From Tritonibacter horizontis (GTDB lineage Bacteria > Pseudomonadota > Alphaproteobacteria > Rhodobacterales > Rhodobacteraceae), in contig NZ_LPUY01000100.1 in the NCBI RefSeq assembly GCF_001518015.1, positions 1 to 64,000 on the forward strand: DNA of 64,000 nucleotides. The letters are read 5' to 3'. Under the pieces are notes generated by a model that worked only from the letters and a program-made list of their open reading frames with translations, made no database searches and was not told where the DNA came from. Both the position numbers and the translations under genes were made by a program. Below are positions 48,446-62,881 of this stretch, in pieces; position 1 is the first letter of the stretch; each line of letters opens with the position of its first letter.

Positions 48446-48556
48446 ATGCGCCTGATCGACCCGTTTTCTGCCTGTGTCTGGGGCGCCGCCACCCGCGCCA
48501 TGGACATGGATGTGCCTGCCTGGCCAGAGCCTGCCCGGCCTGAGGTGGGTCAATGA
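48446..48556 (+). CDS. candidate 36-residue small protein, coupled to the beta-helix gene
   Basis: A 36-codon frame with AAAGGA at 48433-48438, seven bases ahead of ATG, and a TGA that overlaps the next ATG (ATGA). The product starts MRLIDPFSACVWGAA and has no membrane helix or known domain. The good ribosome site and exact overlap suggest either a real small protein or a leader that couples translation of the following gene. Too short for a family call. Confidence 0.5.
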   Translation: MRLIDPFSACVWGAATRAMDMDVPAWPEPARPEVGQ

Positions 48557-50937
48557 CCGGCCCGAGCGCAGCCGGGGCAGGCGCGCCGCTGCCGCAGGTC
48601 GCCTTTGATCCGGTGAACGGAGGGCTCACGATCCGACTGGTCAACACCGATGACGGGGATCGGGGCGCTGTTGCGCTGACCCGCGTGGCGGTTGATGGGG
48701 TTGATCGCACCGGCTCTGTCGTGGCTGCGGCGGCGACGGATCTTGTTACGGACGTGACCTTTCCGCGCGCGGCGGCGGGGGGCGGTGTGCTGGCCTTTGT
48801 CACGGCCGACAGCCTGTCGGGCGGGTCGTGGTATCACCTGCAGTATACCATCTCCGATCAGGCCGCCGGATCCTATCCGTTTTTCGCAATCGGGTCTCCC
48901 TGTTCGAACAGCGGCGAGCAATTGCCACAGGGCATCGGCACGCATTCGGTGCTGGTCGAGATCAAGAGCGGTTTTTCCGGCCAGGGGGCGGTGGAGCTGA
49001 TCCGGGCCAGTGGCGAGATCACCCTGTCCGAAGTCTCTTTCTACAAGGCAGAGTGGTGGCTCGATCTTGCCGGATCCAGAGAATGGGCCGCCGTCACCGA
49101 TCCTGGCAGGCTCTCGGGCAGCAACGCTGCGACAGTGTTGTCGCTGGCCCCCGGCGGCAGCATCACCCAGGGCGAGCGTTTCACGCTGGACTATGAAATC
49201 ATCGAGGCCGAGGAGGTCAGCCATTTCTTTGTTCCCGACGTCGGCAGCCCGTTCCATTTTACGTCCTTGCCCAGCACGCCGGGCGTGCACCGGGTGCCCC
49301 TGGTCGCGGATGGGGATATCAGCGACCGGGCGGTTTTGGCCAGGCTGACCGGGCGACTTTCGATGGGGTTCGTGTCGTTGCGCAAAGACGGGGAGGGGCG
49401 CGGCGTCGAGGTGGAGATCTCGGTCGGCCCCAAAAGCTATGGCGGGACAACTGTCGCGCCCTTGCCGCAGGTCTGGCATGTGGCGGGCTCTGGCGACGAC
49501 CTGCGCGGCACCGGATCGCCGGAAAAACCGTTTCGAACCCCAGCGCAGGCGATGACCGTTTGCAGCGGCGCCGATACGCTGTATCTGCGGGCCGGCGATT
49601 TCGCCGCCTTCGATGTCACCGTTTCAGGCCACTCCGCCGCCGAGCGGTTTCGCATCACCACGCTGCCGGGCGAGGAGAGATTGCCACAGGTCATCGGTCA
49701 CGATTTGCTCACGGCGGGACGTACCGGCAACTACAGCGCCATCCGGCTGCGGGAGGTGAACAATGTTGAAGTGTCCCATCTCAGCATCCTTGGCTCAATG
49801 AAAGAAGGCCTGCTCCTTCAGGGGCAGGAACCCGAAGATGATGTTGGCCCGCCCCCGGTCTATGGTGGGCATCTCATCCACGGCAACAAGGTGCGCCAGA
49901 CCGGGTCCTCGGGGATCATGGCCTGCGGGTTTTATCCCGGCAAGCGGATCGGGATCGGCAATGCGGCAACCGAGGTCTTTCGCCTGTCCGATGTGGTGAT
50001 TTCATACAATGACGTGGCCGAGACCAACGTCGCAAACGACTACAATAGCGCGTTTTCCAATGCCGACGGGCTGCCCGGTGGCAACAACGAGGCGATCACG
50101 ATTGCCGCCTCGGTGCAGGGCTATGTGGTGGAGCACAACCACGTTCATGACACCCTGCAATACGGGATTGATTCAAAGTCAGGCACCCGCGGCGGCACGA
50201 TCCGCTACAACCGGATCTGGAATTGCACCAATCATGGGCTCTATATCGACGCCTCGCGTCGTTTCGTGGACGATCTGGAAATTCATGACAATGTCATCTG
50301 GAGCTGCCGCAATGGTCTCGTCCTCGCCCGAGAGGCAGATTTCGACGCTGACGATCCGACGCTGGATCTGGCCGATTTCGACATGCGGCTTGAGGATATC
50401 CGGGTCTGGAACAACGTGATCTTCGACATGGAACGCGACGGGTTGGTGTGTTTTGCCCATCCCGGTGACCACCCGTCCGGTCGCATCGCCGGGATCGTCA
50501 TTCGGTTCAATACGGTGTTCAACTGTGGGCAGGAGCAGGCCTATCGCGATGAAATTCGCCTTGTCGACTGGGCCGACCCGGCGTGGCGGGCTGCGGGTGT
50601 CGTTCGTGATTTCGAGATGACCGGCAATCTTGTCTGGCGCGACGACGGCAACTTTGACGTGACCGATGACTTCAGTGGGCATGCGGCGTTTTCGATCAAC
50701 GAGAATTTCAATTTCGACGGCCCGCGTGACCCGCTGTTCGTCGCTCCGACGGCGGCAAAGATCGTGGGGCCGGGGGATTACCTGCCGGAGCTGTCCTTGC
50801 CGGACTTGCGCCTGCAACCCGGATCGGCTGCGGCCGAGACCGTCCGGCGCGGTGTCGCCGGGCGATATAATCTGGATGCGGGTGGGCTGGCGCGCGACGC
50901 CCCGACCGCTGCCGGGGCCTTTGCCGTGACCGTGTGA
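48553..50937 (+). CDS. large right-handed parallel beta-helix protein
   Basis: A 794-residue protein. Residues about 75-165 and 193-278 look like two related beta-sandwich modules (WYHLQYTISDQAAG... and FTLDYEIIEAEEVS..., each ending in a VELI/VLARL strand and an LS-V-S-F/L-K motif). From about residue 305 (WHVAGSGDDLRGTGSPEKPF) runs a parallel beta-helix with many Asn/His turns (HNHVHDTLQYGIDSKSGTRG; IHDNVIWSCRNG). The helix resembles pectate-lyase/DUF1565-type polysaccharide-active folds; no catalytic set is certain. No signal peptide and no RTX tail. Neighbouring sugar-acid genes suggest a carbohydrate substrate. Confidence 0.82.
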   Translation: MTGPSAAGAGAPLPQVAFDPVNGGLTIRLVNTDDGDRGAVALTRVAVDGVDRTGSVVAAAATDLVTDVTFPRAAAGGGVLAFVTADSLSGGSWYHLQYTISDQAAGSYPFFAIGSPCSNSGEQLPQGIGTHSVLVEIKSGFSGQGAVELIRASGEITLSEVSFYKAEWWLDLAGSREWAAVTDPGRLSGSNAATVLSLAPGGSITQGERFTLDYEIIEAEEVSHFFVPDVGSPFHFTSLPSTPGVHRVPLVADGDISDRAVLARLTGRLSMGFVSLRKDGEGRGVEVEISVGPKSYGGTTVAPLPQVWHVAGSGDDLRGTGSPEKPFRTPAQAMTVCSGADTLYLRAGDFAAFDVTVSGHSAAERFRITTLPGEERLPQVIGHDLLTAGRTGNYSAIRLREVNNVEVSHLSILGSMKEGLLLQGQEPEDDVGPPPVYGGHLIHGNKVRQTGSSGIMACGFYPGKRIGIGNAATEVFRLSDVVISYNDVAETNVANDYNSAFSNADGLPGGNNEAITIAASVQGYVVEHNHVHDTLQYGIDSKSGTRGGTIRYNRIWNCTNHGLYIDASRRFVDDLEIHDNVIWSCRNGLVLAREADFDADDPTLDLADFDMRLEDIRVWNNVIFDMERDGLVCFAHPGDHPSGRIAGIVIRFNTVFNCGQEQAYRDEIRLVDWADPAWRAAGVVRDFEMTGNLVWRDDGNFDVTDDFSGHAAFSINENFNFDGPRDPLFVAPTAAKIVGPGDYLPELSLPDLRLQPGSAAAETVRRGVAGRYNLDAGGLARDAPTAAGAFAVTV

Positions 50938-51050: not shown

Positions 51051-51776
51051 CTATTCGTAGAGCGCCCGAAGATCCGAAATCGCGATCTCCCTGCGGCTGA
51101 CTTCGAGGATGCCCTCGGCCTGCATCCGGTCCAGAGACTGGGTGACCCATTGCCGGGTTGCGCCGACAATGGTGGCGATCTGGTCGTAGGTGATCGTGCG
51201 ATCAATGACGATGCGGCTGCCCTCGTGGCGGCCATAGGTCTCTGCCAGGATTACCAGCAATTGCCGCAGCCGTTCGGCCACCGTGCGGGTGCCCAGCATC
51301 TGGATCAGGGCCGAATAGCATTTCCCCTTGTTGACCAGACCGTTGATGATCGCGATTGCCACATCGGGGATGTCCCGCACCAGACGTTGCAAACTGACCC
51401 CGGACAAAAACAGCAATTCGCAGTCTTCCAGCGCATCTGCCGACCAGACATGCCGCCCGCCGCCAAAGACCTCGGGCCCGCCGATGAAATGGCCGATGCT
51501 CCAGTAAGCGAGGGTGATTTCACGGCCCGATGGCCCGGCATAAAAGGTCCGCACGCGCCCTTTTTCGACGACCCAGACGCCAGTGTGCGGATCGCCCTGA
51601 AAGAAGATGCCTTCGCCCTTGGTCACCGTGCATCGGGTGCCAAGCTGGCGGGTGGTGCGTTGATCTTCATCCGTCAGCGAGGACAGAAAGCCGGCGCCCT
51701 TGTTGATGTCCAACAGGTACTCCGACAGGAAGATGGCGCTTGGGCCATCGTTGGGCTCGTCAATATTCTCGGTCAC
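51051..51776 (-). CDS. Crp/Fnr-family transcriptional regulator
   Basis: A 241-residue regulator: cyclic-nucleotide-like beta-roll (EGIFFQGDPHTGVWVVEKGR; IGHFIGGPEVFGGG) at residues about 50-125 and an HTH_Crp helix pair (TITYDQIATIVGATRQWVTQ; SLDRMQAEGIL) near the C-terminus. FNR's N-terminal Cys cluster is absent. It begins with GTG overlapping the cytochrome stop (GTGA) and is the last gene of the copper/ABC operon, so it may sense the operon's substrate or redox state. I found no FNR-like box in the nearby promoters. Confidence 0.88.
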   Translation of the reverse strand: MTENIDEPNDGPSAIFLSEYLLDINKGAGFLSSLTDEDQRTTRQLGTRCTVTKGEGIFFQGDPHTGVWVVEKGRVRTFYAGPSGREITLAYWSIGHFIGGPEVFGGGRHVWSADALEDCELLFLSGVSLQRLVRDIPDVAIAIINGLVNKGKCYSALIQMLGTRTVAERLRQLLVILAETYGRHEGSRIVIDRTITYDQIATIVGATRQWVTQSLDRMQAEGILEVSRREIAISDLRALYE

Positions 51777-52369
51777 TCCGGTCTTTCCAGTGAAGCAAGA
51801 TAGGCGGCGATCTCGTCGATGCCTGTGTCCATCCCGCTGAAGATCTCCTGGTGCATCTCTGCGAACGCACCGTGGTCACGCCGACCGTCGCGAAAATCGC
51901 GCATCTGCTTTGACAGATAGCCCGCATGCTGGGCCGAAAGATACGGCACCGCGCCATCGCTGTCCACCTCGTGACAGCCAAGGCAGCCCGCCGCCGCGGT
52001 CAGGGTCTGGCCCAGATCGCTATCCGGCGGATCGCTGGCCGGGGGCGGATCCTGCTGTGCGAACCACTCGATCACGACCGGCAGGTCTTCGGGTGCCAGC
52101 TCTGTCACGATGCTCGACATCTGGCCGCCGTCGTTGCGCCGGATCCCGGAGAGGAAGGCCGCCAGCTGAGCCTGGATATAGGCCGGGTTTTGCCCGGCAA
52201 GATGGGGAAACCGGTCCAGACGGGACTGGCCAGACAGCCCGTGGCAGAGCGCGCAGGTTTCATAGGCGGGATAGCTGTCGGCATCAAAATCCGCATGAAG
52301 CGGCGCGGCCACAGCGGTTGTCAGACCGATGGCCAGACAGAAGGCTGCGCCCATAGGATGGCGGGTCAT
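51773..52369 (-). CDS. diheme c-type cytochrome
   Basis: A 198-residue periplasmic cytochrome with signal peptide (MTRHPMGAAFCLAIGLTTAV, cut near APLHA). Two CxxCH haem sites, CALCH (residues 39-43) and CLGCH (129-133), each followed by a Met-containing segment (GGQMSSIV; SKQMRDF), make two cytochrome c domains of the c4/c553 type. Overlaps its neighbours by four bases on both sides. It would carry electrons from the pathway to the respiratory chain. Confidence 0.92.
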   Translation of the reverse strand: MTRHPMGAAFCLAIGLTTAVAAPLHADFDADSYPAYETCALCHGLSGQSRLDRFPHLAGQNPAYIQAQLAAFLSGIRRNDGGQMSSIVTELAPEDLPVVIEWFAQQDPPPASDPPDSDLGQTLTAAAGCLGCHEVDSDGAVPYLSAQHAGYLSKQMRDFRDGRRDHGAFAEMHQEIFSGMDTGIDEIAAYLASLERPE

Positions 52370-52797
52370 GATCCGGCGCCAGCGGCCCCTACGGTGGCGG
52401 TAACGGATTGGCTCGTGCCATCTGCGAAGCTCAGGACCAGTTCGACCGTATCTCCCGCCTGCAGCGTCCGGTCCGGGTGCATCAGCATGATGTGCAACCC
52501 ACCCGGCGCCAGCGCAATGGTTTGCCCCGGTGCGATCTCCAGCTGGTGCAGCATCGCCATGGTGGCGACGCCGTCCTGTTCGGCGCTGGCATGCAGATGG
52601 GCCATGGCGTAGCCTGCCGCCGTCACCCCGACGAGCCGAAGCGGGGCGGTGCCGGCGTTTGCCAGAGTCATATAGGCCGCATGGGTCATGACGCCCGGCG
52701 GGGCAAGCGGGACATAGGCCGCCTCAACCCGGAGTTGCTGTGCAAAGGCCGAGGTGGCCCAAAGCAGCGCCAGGACCGGCGTGACAGAGCGCATCAT
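52366..52797 (-). CDS. periplasmic copper chaperone PCu(A)C
   Basis: A 143-residue periplasmic protein with signal peptide (ending AFAQ before QLRVEA). The copper site matches H-x10-M-x21-H-x-M exactly: His69, Met80, His102, Met104. PCu(A)C hands Cu(I) to oxidases together with SCO, whose gene comes immediately upstream. Overlaps both neighbours by four bases. Confidence 0.94.
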   Translation of the reverse strand: MMRSVTPVLALLWATSAFAQQLRVEAAYVPLAPPGVMTHAAYMTLANAGTAPLRLVGVTAAGYAMAHLHASAEQDGVATMAMLHQLEIAPGQTIALAPGGLHIMLMHPDRTLQAGDTVELVLSFADGTSQSVTATVGAAGAGS

Positions 52798-53390
52798 TGT
52801 GTTTTCTCCTTGCGATAGCTGAGTTGCAAACGGGCGAGGAATTCTGCCGTCAGCCCCGGATCAAATGGGGGCTGCAGCTTGGCCCGCAGGGTTCCATCGG
52901 GCGCGATGACGGACACGGCCGAGCTGTGCTGGACCTCGTAGTAGCCGTCCTTGTCGGCGGGCAGCAGGCGGTAGAAACCGTCGGTCGCGTCGATAAAGCG
53001 GTCGATCTGGGCGCGGGTGCCGGTCATGCTGCGAAAATCGGGGTGAAAGAAGGGCGCATATTCACTGACAAAAGCGCCGTCCCGGTCCGGGTCGACGGAC
53101 AGGAACCAGACCTTTGGCAGATTGTCCGGTCGCACCCGCATCCCGGTCTCGGCCACGGCCGCCTCAAGATTGCCGAGGGTGAAGGGGCAGACATCGGGGC
53201 AGGACATGAACCCGATCATCACAAGGGTCCACTGACCCTTCAAGTCGGCGCTTGTAAAGGTCGCGCCCGTTTCGTCGTGAAAGGCAAGGTCGGGCAGGGC
53301 GACCGGAGCGTCGAGCATGACGCCCTGCACCTGGGCCTGTGCCAGCGCGGGCCAGCACAGCAGGGCGAGGAGATGCAGCAGGCGTCTCAT
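52794..53390 (-). CDS. SCO family copper protein
   Basis: A 198-residue thioredoxin-fold copper protein with an N-terminal export signal (LLHLLALLCWPALAQA). CPDVCP supplies Cys64 and Cys68 and EVQHSS the partner His (about 155), the classical copper-binding set. SCO proteins load the CuA site of oxidases or act as thiol-disulfide reductants. Here it is cotranscribed with an ABC importer, not with cytochrome oxidase genes, which is unusual. Confidence 0.94.
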   Translation of the reverse strand: MRRLLHLLALLCWPALAQAQVQGVMLDAPVALPDLAFHDETGATFTSADLKGQWTLVMIGFMSCPDVCPFTLGNLEAAVAETGMRVRPDNLPKVWFLSVDPDRDGAFVSEYAPFFHPDFRSMTGTRAQIDRFIDATDGFYRLLPADKDGYYEVQHSSAVSVIAPDGTLRAKLQPPFDPGLTAEFLARLQLSYRKEKTQ

Positions 53391-54229
53391 GCGTTTTGCG
53401 CCGCAAAGGCCTTGCGACTTTCGGCGCGGATGGTGTCGAGGCAGAATTGCCGGGCCTCCAGGTATTTCGGCGTGCTGGCCATTTCGGGCGAGCGGGGGCG
53501 CGGCAACTCCACCCTGACGTCCTCGATGATGCGGCCGGGGGCGGCGCTCATGATCAGGACGCGATCCGCGAGAAACACCGCCTCGTCCACGTCATGGGTG
53601 ATGAAAACCACCGTGGTGCCGAACTTGCGCCAGATGTCCAGCAGGCTTTCCTGCATCATCAGCCGGGTCTGGGCGTCGAGCGCGCCAAAGGGTTCATCCA
53701 TCAGCAGGACGCTGGGGTAATTGGCCAGCGCCCGTGCGATGCCGACCCGCTGCTGCATCCCGCCCGACAGTTCCGCCGGGTAGCGGTTGCCGAATTTCTT
53801 CAGCCCGACCAGACCGAGGAACGTATTGGCGACGGAACCGGCACTGGTGCGCGAGGCGCCAGCCATTTTGGGGCCGAAGGCGACGTTTTCATAGACGGTT
53901 TTCCACGGCAGAAGGGAATACTGCTGAAACACCATGCCGCGATCCGGGCCGGGGCCGGTGACCTTGACGTCATCCACGGTCACCTGTCCGGTGGTCGGCT
54001 TTGTATAGCCGGCAATGGCGTTAAGCAGCGTCGATTTTCCGCAACCAGAGGGGCCGAGGATACAGACAAATTCGCCTGCCTCGATATCAATAGAGGTGCT
54101 TTCAACGGCCTGATGCGCGCTGGCACCCTGACCGAATCTGATCGACACATCGCTGATCCGGATCCGTCCTTTGTCGGCGTCATTGGCAAGGGCGGTGTCG
54201 GGTTTTTTGAATTTCAATACGTCAAGCAT
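53387..54229 (-). CDS. ABC transporter ATP-binding protein (TauB/SsuB/NrtD type)
   Basis: A 280-residue ABC ATPase: Walker A GPSGCGKST, Q-loop FQQYSLLPW, signature LSGGMQQR, Walker B VLLMDEPFGALD, switch His THDVDEA. The PWKTVYENVAFG stretch is typical of taurine/sulfonate/nitrate importers. Its start overlaps the end of the membrane-protein gene by eight bases and its stop overlaps the SCO start. It energises the permease at 54887. Confidence 0.95.
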   Translation of the reverse strand: MLDVLKFKKPDTALANDADKGRIRISDVSIRFGQGASAHQAVESTSIDIEAGEFVCILGPSGCGKSTLLNAIAGYTKPTTGQVTVDDVKVTGPGPDRGMVFQQYSLLPWKTVYENVAFGPKMAGASRTSAGSVANTFLGLVGLKKFGNRYPAELSGGMQQRVGIARALANYPSVLLMDEPFGALDAQTRLMMQESLLDIWRKFGTTVVFITHDVDEAVFLADRVLIMSAAPGRIIEDVRVELPRPRSPEMASTPKYLEARQFCLDTIRAESRKAFAAQNA

Positions 54230-54887
54230 GGCTCGGGGCTCCCATTTGCGATTTGGCTGCACGGGTCTTCCGCCAGGCCAGAAACACTACAGTGCAAGAA
54301 AGCAGGCCAAAGCCCGCGATGTTCAGGGCCGGGCCCATGGTCTCCAGCGCCAGTGAGGTGGCAACGCCCAGCCCCAGCATGGCCAGTCCGACCACCCAGG
54401 AGGGTGCGGCGCAGCAGACCACCCAGCTCATGGTGGCATTGGTCATGGCCACCAGGATGGTCCCGATCCCGGTGGCGGCGCGCAGCGTTGTGGCAGGGCC
54501 CGCCGTGCAGGTGTCACGGCGCTGCAGGCTGGTGCAGAGCGCCACAAGGAGGCCCAGCACAAAGAGCACCATCATCCGCACCGGCACGACGTTGAGGCTC
54601 CATTCCGATATGCCGGTGCCGTATTCATAGTTGATCTTGCCGACCTCAAGCAGCCATTCCTGGTTGATGATCGGCGGGATGTCGCGCCAGGACGGTGTGG
54701 ATTTGACGATATGGATGACATTGCCGATCCAGTCATAGGCCACCACGTAGTTCGGCAGAGCCTGAAACCGGATCATCAGCGCCAGCAGCATCAGCACCTG
54801 AAACAGCACCGCAAACAGCAGACCCGAAAGCAGCATCCGCTGCCAGTCCTGCGCGATGGTGTGGTGTAGGGTTCTCAGCACCGCCAT
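54222..54887 (-). CDS. Cys-rich multi-pass membrane protein of unknown function
   Basis: A 221-residue inner-membrane protein with about five helices, placed between permease and ATPase genes of the ABC importer and coupled to both (TGATG upstream, 8-base overlap downstream). It lacks an EAA loop, so it is not the second ABC permease. Its helix VVCCAAPSWVVGLAMLGLG recalls the CC...P...LGLG helices of MerT/MerC/MerF-type metal transporters, and LSC near the end adds a third Cys. A possible role in copper or thiol handling is inferred only. Confidence 0.7.
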   Translation of the reverse strand: MAVLRTLHHTIAQDWQRMLLSGLLFAVLFQVLMLLALMIRFQALPNYVVAYDWIGNVIHIVKSTPSWRDIPPIINQEWLLEVGKINYEYGTGISEWSLNVVPVRMMVLFVLGLLVALCTSLQRRDTCTAGPATTLRAATGIGTILVAMTNATMSWVVCCAAPSWVVGLAMLGLGVATSLALETMGPALNIAGFGLLSCTVVFLAWRKTRAAKSQMGAPSHA

Positions 54888-55768
54888 CACCGTGCCCTCT
54901 TTTGCCATTTCAGCATCGGCGAGGTGGCCAGTTTCACGGCGGCAGTGGAGGCGGTGCCAAGCCCGCCGATCACCAGCATACCCACGACAATGTCCTGGTA
55001 GTTGATCAGGCTGTAAGCATTCCAGGTGAAGTACCCGATGCCGTATTGCCCGGAGATGATCTCTCCGGCGAGCAGCGAGAACCAGCTGACCCCCATGCCA
55101 ATCGCGAGCCCGGCCGCGATAGAGGGCAACGCGGCCGGGATCACAACATGGAGAAACACCGCCACGCGGGATGCGCCCAGCGATTGGACCGCGCGCACCA
55201 GCACCTCGGGCGTTTGTTCCACCCCATGTAACGTATTGAGAACAATAGGAAACAACGCGCCCAGGAAGGTGATATAGATGATCGAGCTTTCTTCCGTTGG
55301 CCACATCAGGATGGCCAGCGGAATCCAGGCGACGGCCGGAATGGGGCGGATGACCTCAATATAGGGCATCACAAAGGCCCGCGCGATCCGGGAGCGTCCC
55401 ATCATCAGGCCGATGGTGATCCCGAGCACCACAGCGATGGAATAGCTGATGAGGATCCGCCGCATCGACACCCCGATATGGGTCCAGAAAATCTCGGTCT
55501 GGATATGGGCGAAAAAGGCAGAAAAGACCTTCCACGGGGCGGGCACGTTGGAAAAGTTGATGTAAAAATCCAGATTGATCGCCGTCGCGATATGCCAGAG
55601 CCCGATCCCGACACTGAGCGAGACGAGCGCCATGGCGAGACCTTGTAGCCGCTCGGCGGAGAGGCGCGGCACACCCTTGCGCGCTGGTGGCGGCGCGGCC
55701 GGGGTGACCTCGGCGCTGGGTTTGGGTTCGGCTGTGGGGTTTTCCGCATCTTTTACAAGGGGTTGCAT
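54887..55768 (-). CDS. ABC transporter permease (TauC/SsuC type)
   Basis: A 293-residue permease: Pro/Ala-rich N-terminal tail (about 35 residues), then six helices. VRAVQSLGASRVAVFLHVVI is the EAA loop, and EVIRPIPAVAWIPLAILMW the conserved family segment. ATG 55768 is chosen; the open frame extends to 55897 without support. It follows the binding protein after 91 bases and works with the ATPase downstream. Confidence 0.93.
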   Translation of the reverse strand: MQPLVKDAENPTAEPKPSAEVTPAAPPPARKGVPRLSAERLQGLAMALVSLSVGIGLWHIATAINLDFYINFSNVPAPWKVFSAFFAHIQTEIFWTHIGVSMRRILISYSIAVVLGITIGLMMGRSRIARAFVMPYIEVIRPIPAVAWIPLAILMWPTEESSIIYITFLGALFPIVLNTLHGVEQTPEVLVRAVQSLGASRVAVFLHVVIPAALPSIAAGLAIGMGVSWFSLLAGEIISGQYGIGYFTWNAYSLINYQDIVVGMLVIGGLGTASTAAVKLATSPMLKWQKRAR

Positions 55769-55859
55769 GGGTATCTGCCTTAGATCAGGGGGATGGGTCG
55801 TCACGCAAGTCGGGGGGGCTCCGGGCGATCTTGCCGCCCGGAGCCTGCTCAATCGGACA

Positions 55860-57236
55860 TCAGGTTTCCGAGATGAAGTCGGCCACGGCCTCGTCAAAGG
55901 TCACCAGCGCGCCGGCGTTTTCGGCGGCATAGGCCTCGGCTTCGCCCTTGCGCAGGAAGGTCGCATAGCCGTCACCGGTCTTGACCCAGAACGCCGTCTT
56001 GCCAAAGAGCTTCAGCCCGGTTTCCACGTCATAGACATAGGTGGAGTTCAGCTTGGCGCCGGTGCCCTGCATCTCTGCCACGGCGGTCAGGAACTCCGGC
56101 ATGGTGGCATAGCTGCTGATGCCGTCGCGCGCGTGCCAGATTTCCATCGGCAGACCTTCGTTGGCGACGGCGGGGTCCACCATCTTGGCCTTGTCGGCGG
56201 CGTAGTCGACGCCCATGTCCGCATAGGCGGCCTTGAGGTAGTCCTCGGTGATCCAGGCCTCGAAATCGAGCGGCGGAATCGCCTTTTCCTTGACCAGAAC
56301 GCCATGGTTGAACTTGAGCGCGTCAATCCACTCGGTTTTGATCGAGGGTTCCAGCGTCAGGTGACCGCCCTTCGAGAAATAGAGATAGAGCACTTCCTTC
56401 TCGACCCCGGTCCAGCCCTCCATTTCGGACACGGCGCGCATCGGGTCCTCGCGGATCCATTCGCCGGCCTCGTAGACGGCCTTGATGAAGGCCTGCACCA
56501 CCTCGGGGTATTCCTCGGCAAAATCCTGGCGCACGACGACACCGTGCAGGTAGGGCACACCGGTTTCGGCACCGTCATAGATCTTGCGACCGGTGCCGCG
56601 GAATTCCATGATTTCGGACCAGGGGCAGAAATCGGAATGGGCGTCGATCTTGCCCGCGGCGATATTGGCCGCGCCGACCGCTGGGCTCTGGTTTTTCAGA
56701 ACGTAATCAGAGGTCGGGATGCCATTGTCCTGCATCGCCTTGAGCAACATGCCCCAGGCGGCGGAACCAACCGGGGTCGAGACCTCTTTGCCGTTGAGCT
56801 GGTCGATCGAGTAGATGTCGCTTTCGACCGGCACGACGATTGCGTTGCCGGACCCTTTGAGGTTGTAGCCGGTGCCCGCCACATAGAGCGTTCGCAGGCT
56901 GTCGGTTTCCTGGAACTTGGCGCCGTTCACGATCAGGGGATAGTCGCCCATGACGCCAAAGTTCAATTTGTTGGCCAGCATCTGGTTGGTGATCGGTCCG
57001 CCTGAACTGTAGTCGGCCCAGCTGATGTCATATTCCGCATCGGCATAGGCGCCCTCTGTCGGCAGGTGCTTTTCCAGAAGCCCAAGCTCCTTGATCACGA
57101 TGCCGGCGGTATAGGTGTCGGTGCACATGGATTGATGCCCGACGGCAATCGAAATTTTTTCCGCCTGGGCGATGGCGCCGATCGGGATCAGGGTGGCTGC
57201 CAAGAATGCGGACTTGAGGTTGAAGCAATTCTTCAT
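55860..57236 (-). CDS. ABC transporter substrate-binding protein, NMT1/TauA-like, long form
   Basis: A 458-residue binding protein with signal peptide (ending GAIAQA before EKISIAVG). ISIAVGHQSMCTDTYTAG and the ligand strands SSGGPITNQMLANKLNFGVMG and GVPYLHGVVVRQDF resemble SsuA/TauA/NrtA families; at 458 residues it is much longer than TauA (~320) and near NrtA/CmpA (~440). Two Cys in mature protein (QSMC; DFCPW). GGAG stands six bases before ATG 57236. The ligand is unknown. Confidence 0.88.
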   Translation of the reverse strand: MKNCFNLKSAFLAATLIPIGAIAQAEKISIAVGHQSMCTDTYTAGIVIKELGLLEKHLPTEGAYADAEYDISWADYSSGGPITNQMLANKLNFGVMGDYPLIVNGAKFQETDSLRTLYVAGTGYNLKGSGNAIVVPVESDIYSIDQLNGKEVSTPVGSAAWGMLLKAMQDNGIPTSDYVLKNQSPAVGAANIAAGKIDAHSDFCPWSEIMEFRGTGRKIYDGAETGVPYLHGVVVRQDFAEEYPEVVQAFIKAVYEAGEWIREDPMRAVSEMEGWTGVEKEVLYLYFSKGGHLTLEPSIKTEWIDALKFNHGVLVKEKAIPPLDFEAWITEDYLKAAYADMGVDYAADKAKMVDPAVANEGLPMEIWHARDGISSYATMPEFLTAVAEMQGTGAKLNSTYVYDVETGLKLFGKTAFWVKTGDGYATFLRKGEAEAYAAENAGALVTFDEAVADFISET

Positions 57237-57291
57237 TTTCGTCTCCATTGGTCAGTTCAATTTTCGGTATTGAAATCAGTGTCCAATGAAA

Positions 57292-57305
57292 GCGGTCCGG
57301 ACCGC
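57292..57305. promoter_or_regulatory. perfect 14-base palindrome upstream of the importer operon
   Basis: GCGGTCCGGACCGC lies 56 bases before the binding-protein start. A possible regulator site; no known consensus recognised. Confidence 0.35.
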
Positions 57306-57477
57306 AGGGAATTCATATCCCGATCAGGCCCTATCTTTCAGACGCGCAAAATAACGGCAAATTTTGCGGCAAAAGGCGAAAGCGCGGGCGTAAAAAAACC
57401 TCTCAAACTTCGGGTGCTCAAGAATCGGGTGATATTTTTATCTTTTAGAATCAGTGAGTTGAGTGGTATTTGAAGGC

Positions 57478-57515
57478 AAAATTGCACCCTTGGGGTGATC
57501 TCCCCAGGGTGCAAT
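57478..57515 (-). terminator. intrinsic terminator of the flavoprotein-ferredoxin-HEAT operon
   Basis: ATTGCACCCTTGGGG pairs with CCCCAGGGTGCAAT (one-base bulge) around TGATCT; on the minus strand the stem is followed by TTTTG. It lies 29 bases beyond the HEAT gene stop and separates the redox genes from the importer genes. Confidence 0.85.
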
Positions 57516-57543
57516 CAAAAACGGTGGTCCTTTTTCAGCAGGC

Positions 57544-58500
57544 TTATTGCACGGCCATCTTTCCGAGGGCCCAGCGGACGTTTTTGCGGACGTCCGGGTC
57601 CGGGTCGTCTTTGTACTTTTCCAAAAAGGGCAGGGTTTCGACGACGGCCATTTCGCCGAGCACCGCCGCGCATTCCTTGCGCAAATTCGGGACCGGGAGA
57701 TCCATCATCGGCGCGATTTCAATGGCGGCTTCTGTCGCGTTCAGACGCCCCAGGGAGCGCACCGCCTTGAGCCGGACCTGCCAGAATTCATCCTGCAGGG
57801 CGTCGCGCAGCACGGCCACGCAACCGGCGCTGCCGGATTTGGCAAGTGTTTCCGCTGCGGCCTCGCGCACCATCCATTCCGGGTCCTTCAGCCCCTCGAC
57901 CAGCGTTGCCTCGGCATGTTCGGATTTTGAAAATCCAAGCGCCGCCAGGGCGGTCCGGCGCACCTGGGTTTCGCCATCCTTTGCGGCGTCCCGCAGGGCA
58001 GGCAGGGCGTTTTGGTCCTGTAGCCAGCCGATCACCCCGACCGCTTCGGCGCGCACGCCTGCGTCGGCGTGTTTCAGCGCGGCGATCGCGGGCCCCATCG
58101 CTTCGGGGCGGCGCAGTTCCTTGATCCCCGCCAGACAGGCCTTGAGCTTGATGGTATCGGGATCGTCCAGATGCGGCAGGATGGCGTCGCCGGCAGCGGG
58201 GTCTTTGAGTTCCGTCAGGCTGACTGAGGCGGCGGCGACCACGGCCGCGTCGCCATCCGTCAGGGCCGAGACCAGGGCCGCGGCGGTGTCGGGGCCGTCA
58301 AAATCGGTCAGCGCCAGCGCGGCCTGTTTGCGCACGCCCGCATCGGCGTCGGCGATTGCGCGGGCGAGATGGGGAATGGCGGCCGGATCGGCGCTGTCGG
58401 CCAGTTCCATCACCGCCATGATCCGCGCCCCCGGCGACGGGTCGTCCAGCGCCTCGGCCAGTTCACCAATTTCGTCAAAGTCTTCAAACAGAGCGGTCAT
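57544..58500 (-). CDS. HEAT-repeat protein
   Basis: A 318-residue protein built from about nine or ten HEAT/PBS-lyase-type repeats of ~31 residues with the pattern DPDxxVRxxAAxALGxxG (for example DADAGVRKQAALAL, DGETQVRRTALAALG, DPDPDVRKNVRWALG). A solenoid for protein contacts, acting in the cytoplasm. It follows the ferredoxin gene by seven bases, so it probably assembles with the flavoprotein and ferredoxin. Ends at a strong terminator. Confidence 0.88.
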   Translation of the reverse strand: MTALFEDFDEIGELAEALDDPSPGARIMAVMELADSADPAAIPHLARAIADADAGVRKQAALALTDFDGPDTAAALVSALTDGDAAVVAAASVSLTELKDPAAGDAILPHLDDPDTIKLKACLAGIKELRRPEAMGPAIAALKHADAGVRAEAVGVIGWLQDQNALPALRDAAKDGETQVRRTALAALGFSKSEHAEATLVEGLKDPEWMVREAAAETLAKSGSAGCVAVLRDALQDEFWQVRLKAVRSLGRLNATEAAIEIAPMMDLPVPNLRKECAAVLGEMAVVETLPFLEKYKDDPDPDVRKNVRWALGKMAVQ

Positions 58501-58507
58501 CTCAGTC

Positions 58508-58750
58508 TCACTTCAACAAATAGGGGAGGTTTACGGTGACGGCGCCGGTGGGGCAGTCCGCTTCGCAGGGCATGCAGTACCAGCATTCATCGTACTTCAT
58601 ATAGGCCGTCTGGGTGCCGTCGTCGCTGGCCGCGATGCGCAGAACATCGAGCGGGCAGACATCGACACAGACGGTGCAGCCCTTGTCCGCGATGCACAGC
58701 GCCTTGTCCACGACAACGGGAACAATGGAGGAGGTTTGAGCCAATGGCAT
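58508..58750 (-). CDS. 8-Cys ferredoxin, AprB-like
   Basis: An 80-residue ferredoxin with two cluster motifs: C19-x5-C25-x2-C28-x3-C32-P and C56-x2-C59-x2-C62-x3-C66-P, for two [4Fe-4S] clusters. The long first spacing (x5) is unusual. Gene order flavoprotein, ferredoxin, with an AprA-like flavoprotein 11 bases upstream suggests an AprBA-like heterodimer where this protein relays electrons. The long C-terminal tail of true AprB is missing. Confidence 0.88.
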   Translation of the reverse strand: MPLAQTSSIVPVVVDKALCIADKGCTVCVDVCPLDVLRIAASDDGTQTAYMKYDECWYCMPCEADCPTGAVTVNLPYLLK

Positions 58751-58761
58751 GGTTTTATTCC

Positions 58762-60504
58762 TTATTCTGCCGCGACCGTGCTGTTGACACGCTGGTTTGC
58801 ATAGGCGTTCTTCTCGTCGTCATCGATTTCGACGACATAGGGTTGAACAGGCTGCTTGCGGTGTGCGGGTTTGCCATCGTCGCCCTTGGTCAGGATGGTG
58901 TGGCAGAACCAGTTTTCGTCGTCGCGCTCGTATTCGACCCGGTTGTGGTAAAGGCCCCAGCGGCTCTCGGTGCGATAAAGCGAGGCGGCAGCGGCCATGT
59001 CGGCGCAATCCAGGATGGTCGACGCTTCGAGCGACCGCATCAGCTCGTGACTGTCGCGGACATACATCTCGTTTTCCATATCGTGGCGCACCTCGGCAAA
59101 GCGGCGCTGCGCCAGTTCCATCTTTGCGGTGACTTTCGGCGGTTGCAGATAGTCATTCACAAAGCGGCGGGTCTTGTATTCGATCTGGTTCGGCGGGATG
59201 CCATCATCGCGTTTGGTCGGGGCCAGCACGCGGGTCTGTTCGGCGTCAACTTCACCCATGTCGAAATCAGCGAAATCAACATCCTTGATGTAGTCCACCG
59301 CATCGAGCCCGGCAAAGGCGCCGTTGGTAAAGGCCCCAAGCATGTAGTTATGCGGCACGTTGGCCATGTCGCCGGCCGCATAGAGGCCGGGAATGGTGGT
59401 GCGGGCGTGTTCGTCGACAAACACACCGCTGGCAGAGTGGCCGGAGCAGAACCCGACCTCCGAGATGTGCATCTCGATCATTTCGGTCCGGTAGTCGGTG
59501 CCACGCCCCTTGTGGAAATGGCCACGGGTTGGCCGCTCGACGATGTGCAGGACACGCTCGATCTCGGCCACGGTTTCTTCGGCCAGGTGGTTCAGCTTGA
59601 GGTAGACGGGCCCCTTGCCGCCCTGAAGTTCGTCATAGAACTCCTGCATCATCTGACCGGACCAATAGTCGCATTCGATAAACCGCTCGCCCTGGGCATT
59701 GGCCGTATAGCCGCCCATCGGCCCCGCGACATAGGCGCAGGCCGGTCCGTTGTAATCCTTGATCAGCGGGTTGATCTGGAAACACTCGAGGTTCGCAAGG
59801 CCAGCCCCTGCGTGATAGGACATCGCGTAGCCTTCGCCGCTGTTGGAGGCGTTCTCGTAGGTACCATAGAGGTAGCCGGAAGAGGGCAGACCGAGGCGCC
59901 CGGCCGCGCCAAGCGCCATGATGACAGCCTTGGCCCGCACGACGAGGAATTCGGCGGTGCGCGTGTTGACACAGATGGCACCGGCGATGCGATCCTCACC
60001 GGTCAGAAGGCGGGTCGCCATATAGCGGTTGACGATATTGATGCGCGCCTTGCGCAGTTGCCGATAAAGCGCCTTTTTCACCGTGTCGCCATTGGGCATA
60101 GGCAGCACATAGGTGCCGATGTGGTGGACCTTTTTGACGTCATATTCGCCGTTCTGATCCTTCTGAAACCGGATGCCGAACTGGTCCAGCTCCTGGATGA
60201 TGCCATAACATTCATCCGCGTAGCGATAGACCGCCTTTTGATCGACGATGCCGTCGTTGGCGATGGTGATTTCCTTGGTGTATTGCTCGGGGGTGGCATA
60301 GCCGGGAATGACCGAGTTGTTCAGCCCGTCCATCCCCATCGAGATCGCCCCGGACCGTTTCACGTTGGCCTTGTCCAGCAGGACAACGTTGGCCTCGGGG
60401 TTCTTGCGTTTTGCCTTGAGGGCAGCCATCGGACCGGCCGTGCCGCCGCCAATGATCAGGATGTCGCAATCGATCTGCGTCGTTCCATCCAAGATTTCGT
60501 CCAT
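58762..60504 (-). CDS. AprA-like FAD flavoprotein (fumarate reductase/APS reductase family)
   Basis: A 580-residue flavoprotein of the SdhA/FrdA/AprA superfamily. CDILIIGGGTAGPMAALKA binds FAD; KRSGAISMGMDGLNN is closest to the KRSGAVAMG-type segment of APS reductase alpha, and GFCSGHSASGVFVDEHARTT and LYAAGDMANVPHNYMLGAF complete the fold. True AprA is longer (~630-660). ATG 60504 has GGAG six bases upstream; a TTG at 60516 is the alternative. Substrate unknown; it heads a unit with ferredoxin and HEAT genes. Confidence 0.87.
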   Translation of the reverse strand: MDEILDGTTQIDCDILIIGGGTAGPMAALKAKRKNPEANVVLLDKANVKRSGAISMGMDGLNNSVIPGYATPEQYTKEITIANDGIVDQKAVYRYADECYGIIQELDQFGIRFQKDQNGEYDVKKVHHIGTYVLPMPNGDTVKKALYRQLRKARINIVNRYMATRLLTGEDRIAGAICVNTRTAEFLVVRAKAVIMALGAAGRLGLPSSGYLYGTYENASNSGEGYAMSYHAGAGLANLECFQINPLIKDYNGPACAYVAGPMGGYTANAQGERFIECDYWSGQMMQEFYDELQGGKGPVYLKLNHLAEETVAEIERVLHIVERPTRGHFHKGRGTDYRTEMIEMHISEVGFCSGHSASGVFVDEHARTTIPGLYAAGDMANVPHNYMLGAFTNGAFAGLDAVDYIKDVDFADFDMGEVDAEQTRVLAPTKRDDGIPPNQIEYKTRRFVNDYLQPPKVTAKMELAQRRFAEVRHDMENEMYVRDSHELMRSLEASTILDCADMAAAASLYRTESRWGLYHNRVEYERDDENWFCHTILTKGDDGKPAHRKQPVQPYVVEIDDDEKNAYANQRVNSTVAAE

Positions 60505-60564
60505 ATCGGGCTCCAATGCAGTGATGTCTTATCCTGCGCCGTGCTGCGGCGCGGCAAATGTCAA

Positions 60565-60855
60565 TTAGTTTCCGTATTGCTCGGAAAGCGCGTGCAGATA
60601 CTCAAAAGGGTAGATTGCGCGGTCATGACCGTCTGAAAAATGGATGTTCACGCCGCCGCGCCCGACCTGTGCCAGGGCGGTGATGGTCAGGTCCGGCGCC
60701 ACGGCGATCTCCCCGTGGTCCAGCTTGGCGCGCCGTGTGTAGGCGTCGCGGGCCTCGCGCCGCAGGGTGGTGGCGGCCAGTTCGGTTGTGCCGCCGCCCT
60801 CCCATTCGACGATCAGGTGACGGTTGTCTGTGGTTGCGGAGAGCCTGTCGATCAT
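60565..60855 (-). CDS. DUF971 (gamma-butyrobetaine hydroxylase N-terminal-like) protein
   Basis: A 96-residue protein of the DUF971 family: LIVEWEGGGTTELAATTLRR and VNIHFSDGHDRAIYPFEYLH are characteristic. The domain is found alone or fused to Fe-S carrier (Mrp/ApbC) or hydroxylase proteins. It sits 60 bases before the flavoprotein gene on the same strand, in keeping with Fe-S assembly for the ferredoxin. Confidence 0.88.
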   Translation of the reverse strand: MIDRLSATTDNRHLIVEWEGGGTTELAATTLRREARDAYTRRAKLDHGEIAVAPDLTITALAQVGRGGVNIHFSDGHDRAIYPFEYLHALSEQYGN

Positions 60856-60978
60856 ATGCGGTCCCTTTCGATTTCTCTCAGGATGCCGCATCGCAGAATC
60901 GCTCAATAGCAATTTGTTTACGGACAGGGTTTCTGCGGCGCGGCACGCTGGGCGCAAACTGGAGAAAGAGAACCCGCC

Positions 60979-61320
60979 ATGACCTTCGTCGTCACCGACA
61001 ACTGCATCGCCTGCAAATACACTGACTGCGTTTCCGTCTGCCCCGTGGATTGTTTTTACGAGGGCGAGAACATGTTGGTGATCGACCCGGAAGAATGCAT
61101 CGACTGTGGCGTCTGCGAACCGGAATGCCCGGCGGATGCGATTCGTGCCGACACCGAAGAGGGCATGGAACCCTGGATCGCCTTCAACGAAAAATACGCA
61201 AAGATCTGGCCGGTCATCACCGAAGCCAAGGACCCGCTGCCGGAGGCCGACGATATGGACGGCCAGGCCAATAAGCTCGAGACCCATTTTTCGGAAAACC
61301 CCGCCACCGAGGCGGCCTGA
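60979..61320 (+). CDS. fdxA: 7Fe ferredoxin
   Basis: A 113-residue FdxA-type ferredoxin with one [3Fe-4S] and one [4Fe-4S] cluster: [18 protein letters not shown] then [16 protein letters not shown], and the C-terminal [19 protein letters not shown] tail typical of FdxA. GGAG precedes the ATG. The divergent promoter region is shared with DUF971 and the flavoprotein operon, and ferredoxin-NADP reductase follows after 12 bases. Confidence 0.95.
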
Positions 61321-61332
61321 AGGACCTAGCTG

Positions 61333-62133
61333 ATGAACGTACAAACCCAAAGCCCCGCCAAGATCCTGCCCGATGCACAGACGGTTTCCTCCGTGCATCA
61401 TTGGACCGACACGTTGTTTTCGTTTCGCGTGTCGCGGCCGAAATCACTGCGGTTCCGATCCGGTGAATTCGTGATGATCGGCCTGTTGAAGGAGGACGGT
61501 AAACCGCTGTTGCGCGCCTATTCGATTGCGTCGCCCAGCTGGGACGAGGAGCTGGAATTCTATTCGATCAAGGTGCCGGATGGTCCGCTGACCTCACGCC
61601 TGCAAAAAATCGCACCGGGGGACGAGATCATCCTGCGCCCGAAACCGGTGGGGACCTTGGTTCTGGACGCGCTGTTGCCGGGAAAACGGCTGTGGATGAT
61701 CTGTACCGGCACCGGTGTTGCCCCCTTTGCCTCCCTGTTGCGCGATCCGGAAACCTGGGAGCAATACGACGAGGTGATTCTGGCGCATACCTGTCGCACG
61801 GCGGCTGAACTGGACTATGGCCGCACGCTGGTCGAGGCCTTGCCGGATGACCCACTGATCGGCGAATTGGTGGGCGACAAGCTGAAATATTACCCGACAA
61901 CCACGCGCGAGCCCTCGGCCATCGAGGGGCGCATCAGCGATCACATCCGCGATGGCCGGGTGTTTGCGGCCCTGGGGTTGCCGGAATGGACCTGCGACAG
62001 CGACCGGGTGATGGTCTGCGGCAATCTTGCCCTGAACAAGGACATCATGGGGCTGTGCGAAGGCTATGGGCTGGTCGAGGGGGCCAATTCAGACCCGAAG
62101 CATTTTGTGGTCGAAAAGGCATTTATTGACTGA
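61333..62133 (+). CDS. fpr: ferredoxin--NADP reductase
   Basis: A 266-residue FAD enzyme of the bacterial FPR type: RAYSIASPSW binds FAD, GTGVAPFASLLRDPET binds NADP, and C-terminal VEKAFID follows (bacterial FPRs extend beyond the Tyr of plant type). It would pass electrons between NADPH and the ferredoxin encoded 12 bases upstream. The last 11 bases overlap the convergent DsbA-like gene. Confidence 0.94.
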   Translation: MNVQTQSPAKILPDAQTVSSVHHWTDTLFSFRVSRPKSLRFRSGEFVMIGLLKEDGKPLLRAYSIASPSWDEELEFYSIKVPDGPLTSRLQKIAPGDEIILRPKPVGTLVLDALLPGKRLWMICTGTGVAPFASLLRDPETWEQYDEVILAHTCRTAAELDYGRTLVEALPDDPLIGELVGDKLKYYPTTTREPSAIEGRISDHIRDGRVFAALGLPEWTCDSDRVMVCGNLALNKDIMGLCEGYGLVEGANSDPKHFVVEKAFID

Positions 62134-62881
62134 GCCACCCGGCCACCAGCGCCTCTGCATCCGTGCCGCCGATCTGGACGGATGTGGGGGTCACAAATGC
62201 CGGCGTGCCGCGAAGCCCCAGATCGCCTGCGATCTGGCGGTTGCGGGCGATCCGGCTGGTGATCGCGTCGCTGTCCATTTCCACCCTGAGGCGGGTCCAG
62301 TCCAGACCCTGCTCTGCCGCGATCTCGGCAAAAGCGGCCTCTTGAAGGGGGCGGTGCAGCGACCAGAGGGCCGTATGCGTGGCCTCGTATTTTTCCTGCC
62401 CTGCCAAATGTTTGACCGCAAGGGCAAAACGTGCCGCGCGCTCTGATCCGGGCGACAGGATCGGCAGATGGCGCATTTCAACCCGCAGCTCCGGATGGTC
62501 GGCAAGGGCGGCCTTCAACGGCGCGTGCAGCGCCTTGCAGGGGGCGCATTTGTAATCGAAAAACTCGATCACGGTGATCGGCGCGTCCGCCGGACCCAAT
62601 CCGAGGCTAGGCGGTTCGCTGAACAGATCCGGATATTGCGCGATTCTGGCGGTTTGTTGTGCTCTGGCTTCGCGCTCTGACAGGATTTCCATCGCTTCGA
62701 GAATGATGTCCGGGTGGGACAGGATATAGGCGCGCAGCCGTTCTTCGAACTCCTGATCCGACATGTCGCCGAGCGCCGGACCGACAAGGCAGGCCGCCAT
62801 CGCACAGCGTGCAAGGCGCTGGAGCCACCGGCCTGCGCGAGGTCCTGCTGGTTTCCGTCGTGCCAATTTCTGTCGTGCCAT
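62123..62881 (-). CDS. DsbA-family thiol oxidoreductase
   Basis: A 252-residue secreted thioredoxin-fold protein. After an Arg/Lys-rich, hydrophobic signal (LQRLARCAMAACLVGPALG) come an N-terminal helical extension and FFDYKCAPCKALHAPL with the redox-active CAPC, then the family GLRGTPAFVTP cis-Pro loop. Like BdbD/DsbA-type oxidases it acts in the periplasm. ATG 62881 is the start; the upstream frame to 63166 lacks support. Convergent overlap with fpr. Confidence 0.9.
   Translation of the reverse strand: MARQKLARRKPAGPRAGRWLQRLARCAMAACLVGPALGDMSDQEFEERLRAYILSHPDIILEAMEILSEREARAQQTARIAQYPDLFSEPPSLGLGPADAPITVIEFFDYKCAPCKALHAPLKAALADHPELRVEMRHLPILSPGSERAARFALAVKHLAGQEKYEATHTALWSLHRPLQEAAFAEIAAEQGLDWTRLRVEMDSDAITSRIARNRQIAGDLGLRGTPAFVTPTSVQIGGTDAEALVAGWLSQ

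Follow-up and report, generated by a model that had tools for sequence, protein, structure and literature searches.

Positions 1 to 64,000 of contig NZ_LPUY01000100.1 of Tritonibacter horizontis (a 64-kb stretch, hereafter the window) carry one copy of a conserved, patchily distributed and partly plasmid-borne gene system. It combines an AprBA-type flavo-FeS enzyme with a HEAT-repeat protein and a Tau-type ATP-binding cassette (ABC) importer, and in the window it has an unusual copper-linked branch. Known parent families exist for all core parts, so the system is not categorically new. The explanation that we tentatively prefer, at slightly less than an even chance, is ABC uptake of a sulfonate-like anion followed by AprBA-derived redox cleavage that releases sulfite. 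The gene set and its conservation, the kinship of the flavoprotein to AprA and to 3'-phosphoadenosine 5'-phosphosulfate (PAPS) reductase (PAPSR), its changed active site, and the co-occurrence of exporters and modules are directly visible in the sequences.

Recurrence of the core gene set

The core and importer genes of the window are as follows:

58762..60516, minus strand: flavin adenine dinucleotide (FAD) flavoprotein, 584 aa, family PRK08275, predicted alpha subunit; an AprA/PAPSR relative with a rebuilt active site (NF006131, 1042 bits; tree; residues)
58508..58750, minus strand: 2[4Fe-4S]-type ferredoxin, 80 aa, 8 Cys, AprB-like beta subunit
57544..58500, minus strand: HEAT-repeat protein, 318 aa, putative scaffold or assembly factor of the flavoprotein (PF13646, 160 bits)
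55860..57248, minus strand: binding protein, 462 aa, with an SsuA-like domain and a NosL-like C-terminal domain
54887..55768, minus strand: ABC permease (PF00528, 77 bits)
53387..54262 (GTG start, or ATG at 54229), minus strand: ABC ATPase (PF00005, 113 bits)

The surroundings of flavoprotein relatives were scored with 15 window proteins, at first with E <= 1e-4 over 90 loci. Two of these were set aside, one being a copy of the window's own region and the other an SdhA gene from that genome, which left 88 (80 named genome contigs and 8 plasmid loci; 35 are Bradyrhizobium). The E <= 1e-4 counts let in weak unrelated ABC matches, and the counts given here come from a recount of the 88 loci with stricter bit-score limits chosen after the data had been seen. 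The flavoprotein was found in 88, the ferredoxin in 87 and the HEAT protein in 86 of these loci; binding protein, permease and ATPase were each found in 76, with all three together in 74. The 12 loci that lack a strong binding-protein match comprise several short contigs and others that are not. A DUF971 protein occurs in 74 loci, a Crp-like regulator in 64, a ferredoxin-NADP reductase (Fpr)-like protein in 54 and FdxA in 27, and a membrane protein, SCO and cytochrome c in 11 each and PCu(A)C in 9.

An even draw of Pseudomonadota genomes gave the flavoprotein in 15 of 299, and 0 of 14 well-known control genomes had it. The 14 carriers from this draw besides the window's genome all have the ferredoxin and the HEAT protein (14/14 each), and 13/14 have the importer. 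Plasmid copies occur in cyanobacteria (Nostoc, Leptolyngbya, Pseudanabaena), the actinobacterium Tsukamurella and Acidithiobacillus. Regulators vary by lineage (Crp, GntR-UTRA, LysR). Exporters of sulfite/sulfate families are encoded close to the core in 43 of 110 loci, and several copies sit among sulfur-scavenging genes. The flavoprotein, ferredoxin, HEAT protein and Tau/Ssu-type importer thus recur together beyond chance, which upholds a preliminary description of the window, made from its letters only, that had looked to conservation of the flavoprotein gene with the HEAT gene and with the importer for support.

Gene content around the core was observed to differ in places. On the Nostoc edaphicum plasmid pNe_5 (L086, 9989-16144), the block between the flavoprotein and the ferredoxin/HEAT genes holds two HAD hydrolases, a methyltransferase, a GNAT and a VOC protein. 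Beside a Paraburkholderia copy (L124, 18625-22737) lie an LLM flavin oxidoreductase, a class II aldolase, a 3-mercaptopropionate dioxygenase and a rhodanese, possibly an organosulfur catabolic set. Three loci (L019, L044 and L054) have a thioredoxin-like periplasmic protein (TlpA-type by eye) and a GntR regulator between the HEAT and binding-protein genes.

Flavoprotein family and active site

The flavoprotein scored 1042.1 bits against NF006131 (PRK08275), above the curated cutoff of 587; the NCBI name of this family, 'fumarate reductase/succinate dehydrogenase flavoprotein subunit', is a label and not a tested function. Its closest solved structure is the PAPS reductase of Methanothermococcus (PDB 8a8o_A, E 1.8e-62). 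In the tree, the PRK08275 family forms one group (support 91/85) separate from AprA, PAPS reductase, one SdhA and one NadB. The rooting relies on two long outgroup rows, and a position as sister of AprA and PAPSR is not independently shown by it. Membership in SdhA, FrdA or NadB was rejected on scores of 161.1, 116.5 and 110.9 bits against cutoffs of 567.3, 727.35 and 452.75, respectively. A grouping within FrdA or NadB, which would have spoken against the preliminary description, was not seen; the flavoprotein stands apart from SdhA and NadB in the tree, and FrdA was compared by model and fold only.

Active-site residues were compared in 24 family rows and in 10 AprA rows picked by phmmer. 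According to the available sections of PMC2211403, Asn74, Trp234, Arg265 and His398 of AprA surround the sulfate of adenosine 5'-phosphosulfate (APS). Like AprBA, the present system has an FAD alpha subunit and an 8-Cys beta subunit with a relay Trp, and it retains AprA Asn74 and His398 (N66 and H360, 24/24 rows) and His446 (H389). It differs in that Arg265, kept in 10/10 AprA rows, is replaced by Leu (Leu251), Trp234 by Tyr (Tyr220), and the substrate loop REGQW by a conserved V-H-H-x-G-x-Y-V-L-P-M-P, each in 24/24 family rows; in addition, it forms its own group, its beta subunit has only 80 aa, and it is encoded with an importer, a HEAT protein and often Fpr. Neither Arg of the AprA/PAPSR pocket region is kept in any of the 24 family rows. 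Since Arg265 is Leu and the substrate loop is both different and conserved throughout the family, the flavoprotein is very unlikely to reduce APS. An APS reductase proper was also rejected on scores, 130.8 bits against a cutoff of 641.75 for TIGR02061 and 27.5 against 135.65 for the beta-subunit model TIGR02060 (aprB; residues 11-74). The AprA-like character given to this protein in the preliminary description therefore holds as kinship to AprA and PAPSR, but the protein belongs to a group of its own with a changed active site and lies under the AprA cutoff. The AlphaFold model is weak just around the active site (mean pLDDT 68).

The Methanothermococcus enzyme and an Ilyobacter relative have subunit sizes similar to those of the present family and keep both pocket Arg, which the present family does not. 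The neighbors differ as well: those of the Ilyobacter copy are cysC, cysD and a GTP-binding protein gene, those of the present family an ABC importer. A PAPS reductase of this type was rejected, as the pocket Arg are absent in 24/24 rows, the family is a separate group in the tree, and 16 annotated neighbor tables contain no cysC or cysD.

Ferredoxin, HEAT protein and DUF971

The ferredoxin is, on its residues, an AprB-type beta subunit predicted to hold two [4Fe-4S] clusters and a relay Trp: the 8 Cys and Trp57 are invariant in 24/24 rows (23 family members and the Ilyobacter beta subunit). NCBIfam PRK13800 describes the flavoprotein joined to HEAT repeats, and the window HEAT protein aligns to the C-terminal portion of this model. 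The Tsukamurella flavoprotein gene spans 2,682 bases with no separate HEAT match at its locus, probably a flavoprotein-HEAT fusion. The DUF971 protein is a possible Fe-S assembly helper, and in three loci on cyanobacterial plasmids the HEAT gene is followed by one for an Mrp/NBP35 Fe-S ATPase (Pfam check of one). A link of five window proteins to defense systems was rejected, since PADLOC matches at 1e-5 were found only for the HEAT protein, and these were to HEAT models.

Importer and binding protein

Like TauABC and SsuABC, the importer has the binding-protein fold and the permease and ATPase families, and it may share two sulfonate-ligand positions with them. It differs from them in the NosL-like C-terminal domain of its binding protein, in binding-protein scores under the curated cutoffs (116.1 bits of 163.5 for SsuA_fam and 72.1 of 304.25 for the taurine model), and in having no monooxygenase or dioxygenase in the window's unit. 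The TauA-type importer of the preliminary description is thus backed by fold and families, but not by the SsuA and taurine models. The sulfonate-ligand residues of SsuA (Gln36, Gly68, Gly86 and Ser141) were compared over 90 aligned binding proteins. Gln39 and Gly83 are present in 90/90; the Gly86 position is Gly in 68 and Ala in 22, and the Ser141 position is Ala in 69 and Thr in 21. The unusual length of the binding protein, remarked on earlier, is explained by the SsuA-like domain plus the NosL-like domain. The latter was detected in 12 of 22 members at E <= 0.1 (best 2e-8; window copy 0.08), in binding proteins both with and without the membrane protein at their locus, and these data do not tie it to copper.

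Membrane protein and copper/cytochrome branch

The 221-aa membrane protein encoded between permease and ATPase had no Pfam or NCBIfam match at 0.01, and only sub-cutoff matches at E <= 5. Across 295 genomes of the window's family, it was found in 9 and the flavoprotein in 10, with the window's genome in both counts; all 9 are among the 10 flavoprotein carriers, as opposed to 0 of the 285 others (Fisher p 2e-16, not corrected for relatedness). The 385 genomes of the class include 4 flavoprotein carriers, and among all of them the membrane protein turned up solely in the genome of the window. The membrane protein belongs to the system. The one flavoprotein carrier of the family in which it was not found (G778) also showed no SCO, PCu(A)C or cytochrome in the fetched stretch. 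In another carrier (G714), the matches to the flavoprotein, DUF971, HEAT, permease, membrane-protein, ATPase and Crp genes are each split between frames, those to ferredoxin, binding protein, SCO and PCu(A)C are unbroken, and a cytochrome was not found at the locus. This looks like decay of the system as a whole, with a fault of assembly as the alternative.

A block made up of the membrane protein, SCO, cytochrome c and, in some but not all cases, PCu(A)C recurs in Rhodobacteraceae, Labrenzia, Chelativorans, Granulosicoccus and other groups, and the cytochrome has two CxxCH in 11/11 relatives and in the window copy. The only Cys of the window binding protein are at 8 (leader), 42 and 208. SMCTDTY at 40-46 and DFCPW at 206-210 occur in 12/12 binding proteins of membrane-protein loci; among the 78 without the membrane protein at their locus, Cys42 occurs in 1 and Cys208 in 3. 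Cys42 and Cys208 are the sole two in 8 of the 12 sequences, and the other four have extra Cys upstream, in leaders or in frames of uncertain start. On the alignment, Gln39 falls on a sulfonate ligand of SsuA and position 207, by count, on Trp185, which faces the SsuA pocket; both Cys would therefore flank the presumed pocket. SCO and PCu(A)C build CuA sites. The pattern suggests a copper or dithiol site at the binding-protein pocket. Weighing against this copper part, the 12 binding proteins are closely related to one another (60-89% identity), and shared ancestry alone can yield the Cys pattern. Both Cys42 and Cys208 also occur in the binding protein of a 7.4-kb contig with no membrane protein in view (L073).

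Proposed function and alternatives

We infer substrate, direction, sulfite as product, electron route and the role of copper as follows. The SsuA-like binding protein would catch a sulfonate-like anion, which the permease and ATPase would pump inward. In the cytoplasm, flavoprotein and 8-Cys ferredoxin would act as an AprBA-derived redox enzyme, assembled or held together by the HEAT protein, with DUF971 aiding Fe-S loading. Electrons may pass from NADPH through Fpr, FdxA, the beta-subunit clusters and Trp57 to FAD; reduced FAD would then attack or reduce the imported molecule and free sulfite, probably via an FAD-N5-sulfite adduct as known from APS reductase. The sulfite would be assimilated, or leave the cell through exporters of YeiH/TauE type, whose genes are often close by. 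In the window's branch, SCO, PCu(A)C and the diheme cytochrome may load the two-Cys site of the binding protein with copper or set its redox state. The uptake-plus-redox reading of the preliminary description is in part supported, by the gene set, importer co-occurrence and AprA kinship, although the active site is not of AprA type. A fuller version is rather doubtful: on a HEAT scaffold and with an importer of its own, an AprBA-derived enzyme would cleave an organosulfonate (or other S-oxo anion) by flavin-based reduction independent of O2, and in one branch the binding protein would be a copper/dithiol redox protein built by SCO/PCu(A)C and wired to the diheme cytochrome, capturing substrate at a metal/thiol site before uptake.

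The flavoprotein may instead have left sulfur chemistry, its AprA-derived scaffold reducing a C=C, C=O or other bond of an imported non-sulfur anion like fumarate reductase relatives. Loss of both pocket Arg with a wholly different substrate loop fits this, fumarate reductases score by fold about equal to APS reductase, the binding-protein fold also takes nitrate and bicarbonate, and the lineage-specific regulators (Crp, GntR-UTRA, LysR) suit any small-molecule inducer. The recurring sulfite/sulfate exporters, the copies among sulfur-scavenging genes, and the retained Asn66, His360 and His389 argue against it, and we consider it unlikely, at about one chance in four.

Sulfite-releasing reduction would be reversed if a sulfur compound were oxidized at FAD, with electrons passing to NADP via ferredoxins and Fpr or to a periplasmic cytochrome, as suggested for the APS reductase of sulfur oxidizers. 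For AprBA, operation in either direction has been proposed (available sections of PMC2211403), and SCO, PCu(A)C and cytochrome c share the overlapping gene run; this is nevertheless improbable, as ATP sulfurylase is named in 0 of 16 annotated neighbor tables (whole genomes were not searched for it) and a cytochrome is present in 11 of 88 loci compared with an Fpr-like protein in 54. Least probable of all is uptake and disarming of a metal or thiol-reactive compound, as proposed for organometal-handling systems. The SaoA and SaoP models give the best scores of ATPase and permease, the window's branch has copper chaperones, one plasmid copy adjoins a chromate exporter gene, and the double-Cys motif of the membrane protein (WVVCCA) may resemble one of mercury transporters. 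However, the exporters near the core are of sulfite/sulfate families, and the Sao scores are far below curated cutoffs; on the Sao ABC models, membership in the SAO organometal system was rejected at 261.5 of 360, 136.9 of 295 and 32.5 of 300 bits for SaoA, SaoP and SaoX.

Relation to known systems

The preliminary description knew of no pathway with this gene set, and none was found, as pathway or biochemistry, by searches of the open-access PMC literature, with most subscription papers outside it; the available part of PMC3826726 has nothing on the set. Operons of 'F. caldus' plasmids with ferredoxin, 'APS reductase', GntR and ABC sulfonate transporter modules like the present set had already been predicted, in a 2025 paper (PMC12375680), to serve in organosulfonate use; it is the only source found to name such operons. 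In the sections covered, the prediction is brief and without a family, active-site or co-occurrence test. Plasmid pTcM1, in a figure legend of that paper, carries the gene set (L084).

If sulfite-releasing cleavage is correct, the cycling of organic sulfur in sea, soil and root nodules would gain a further branch, a widespread, patchily distributed alternative of AprBA descent. To our knowledge, the enzymes with which aerobes desulfonate sulfonates for sulfur supply use O2. MsuD does so according to the available sections of PMC8234197. Flavoenzymes of rhizobia, methylobacteria and cyanobacteria annotated as 'fumarate reductase/succinate dehydrogenase' would gain a testable role, and substrate capture by a two-cysteine binding protein accompanied by copper chaperones would be of an unusual kind.

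Locus layout

The remaining features of the locus are as follows:

60565..60891 (alternative ATG 60855), minus strand: DUF971/GBBH-like_N protein, 108 aa (PF06155, 58.7 bits)
57482..57514, minus strand: terminator-like GC-rich inverted repeat followed by TTTT, 3' of the HEAT gene
54222..54887, minus strand: membrane protein, 221 aa, WVVCCA motif, matching no known family
52794..53390, minus strand: SCO copper chaperone/thiol protein (PF02630, 93 bits)
52366..52797, minus strand: PCu(A)C copper chaperone (PF04314, 106 bits)
51773..52369, minus strand: diheme cytochrome c (PF00034; two CxxCH)
51051..51776, minus strand: Crp/Fnr-family regulator (PF00027, PF13545)
60979..61320, plus strand: FdxA-type ferredoxin (PF11953, Fer4)
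61333..62133, plus strand: Fpr (PF00175, PF00970)

Every open reading frame named earlier is open at or very near its position, and the domain labels agree with Pfam/NCBIfam profile searches, so the inventory and strands of the preliminary description stand, as does the opposite orientation of fdxA and fpr. The flavoprotein starts at TTG, or at an ATG four codons further in. Stop-start overlaps, described as nearly universal, occur at all six junctions from permease through Crp, and a 91-base gap separates the end of the binding-protein gene from the permease start. The terminator closing the DUF971-to-HEAT unit is less secure. The hairpin (57514-57482) is GC-rich and followed by only four T, but a terminator scan of the window did not list it (the 11 matches of the scan are not above the shuffle mean of 9.4), so it is read from the letters themselves. 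The Crp/Fnr regulator showed no N-terminal Cys cluster of the kind known from Fnr. In the window and 15 loci, no perfect inverted repeat that might act as a shared operator was common to the upstream regions of the binding-protein and fdxA/DUF971 genes.

A gene for a DsbA-like protein with a ScsC_N (copper resistance) domain (62126-62779, minus strand) is arranged tail to tail with fpr, and it is seen again beside fpr in several Rhodobacteraceae loci. Adjoining the Crp gene is a gene for a right-handed beta-helix protein of 794 aa (48553-50937, plus strand) with a NosD match just below cutoff.

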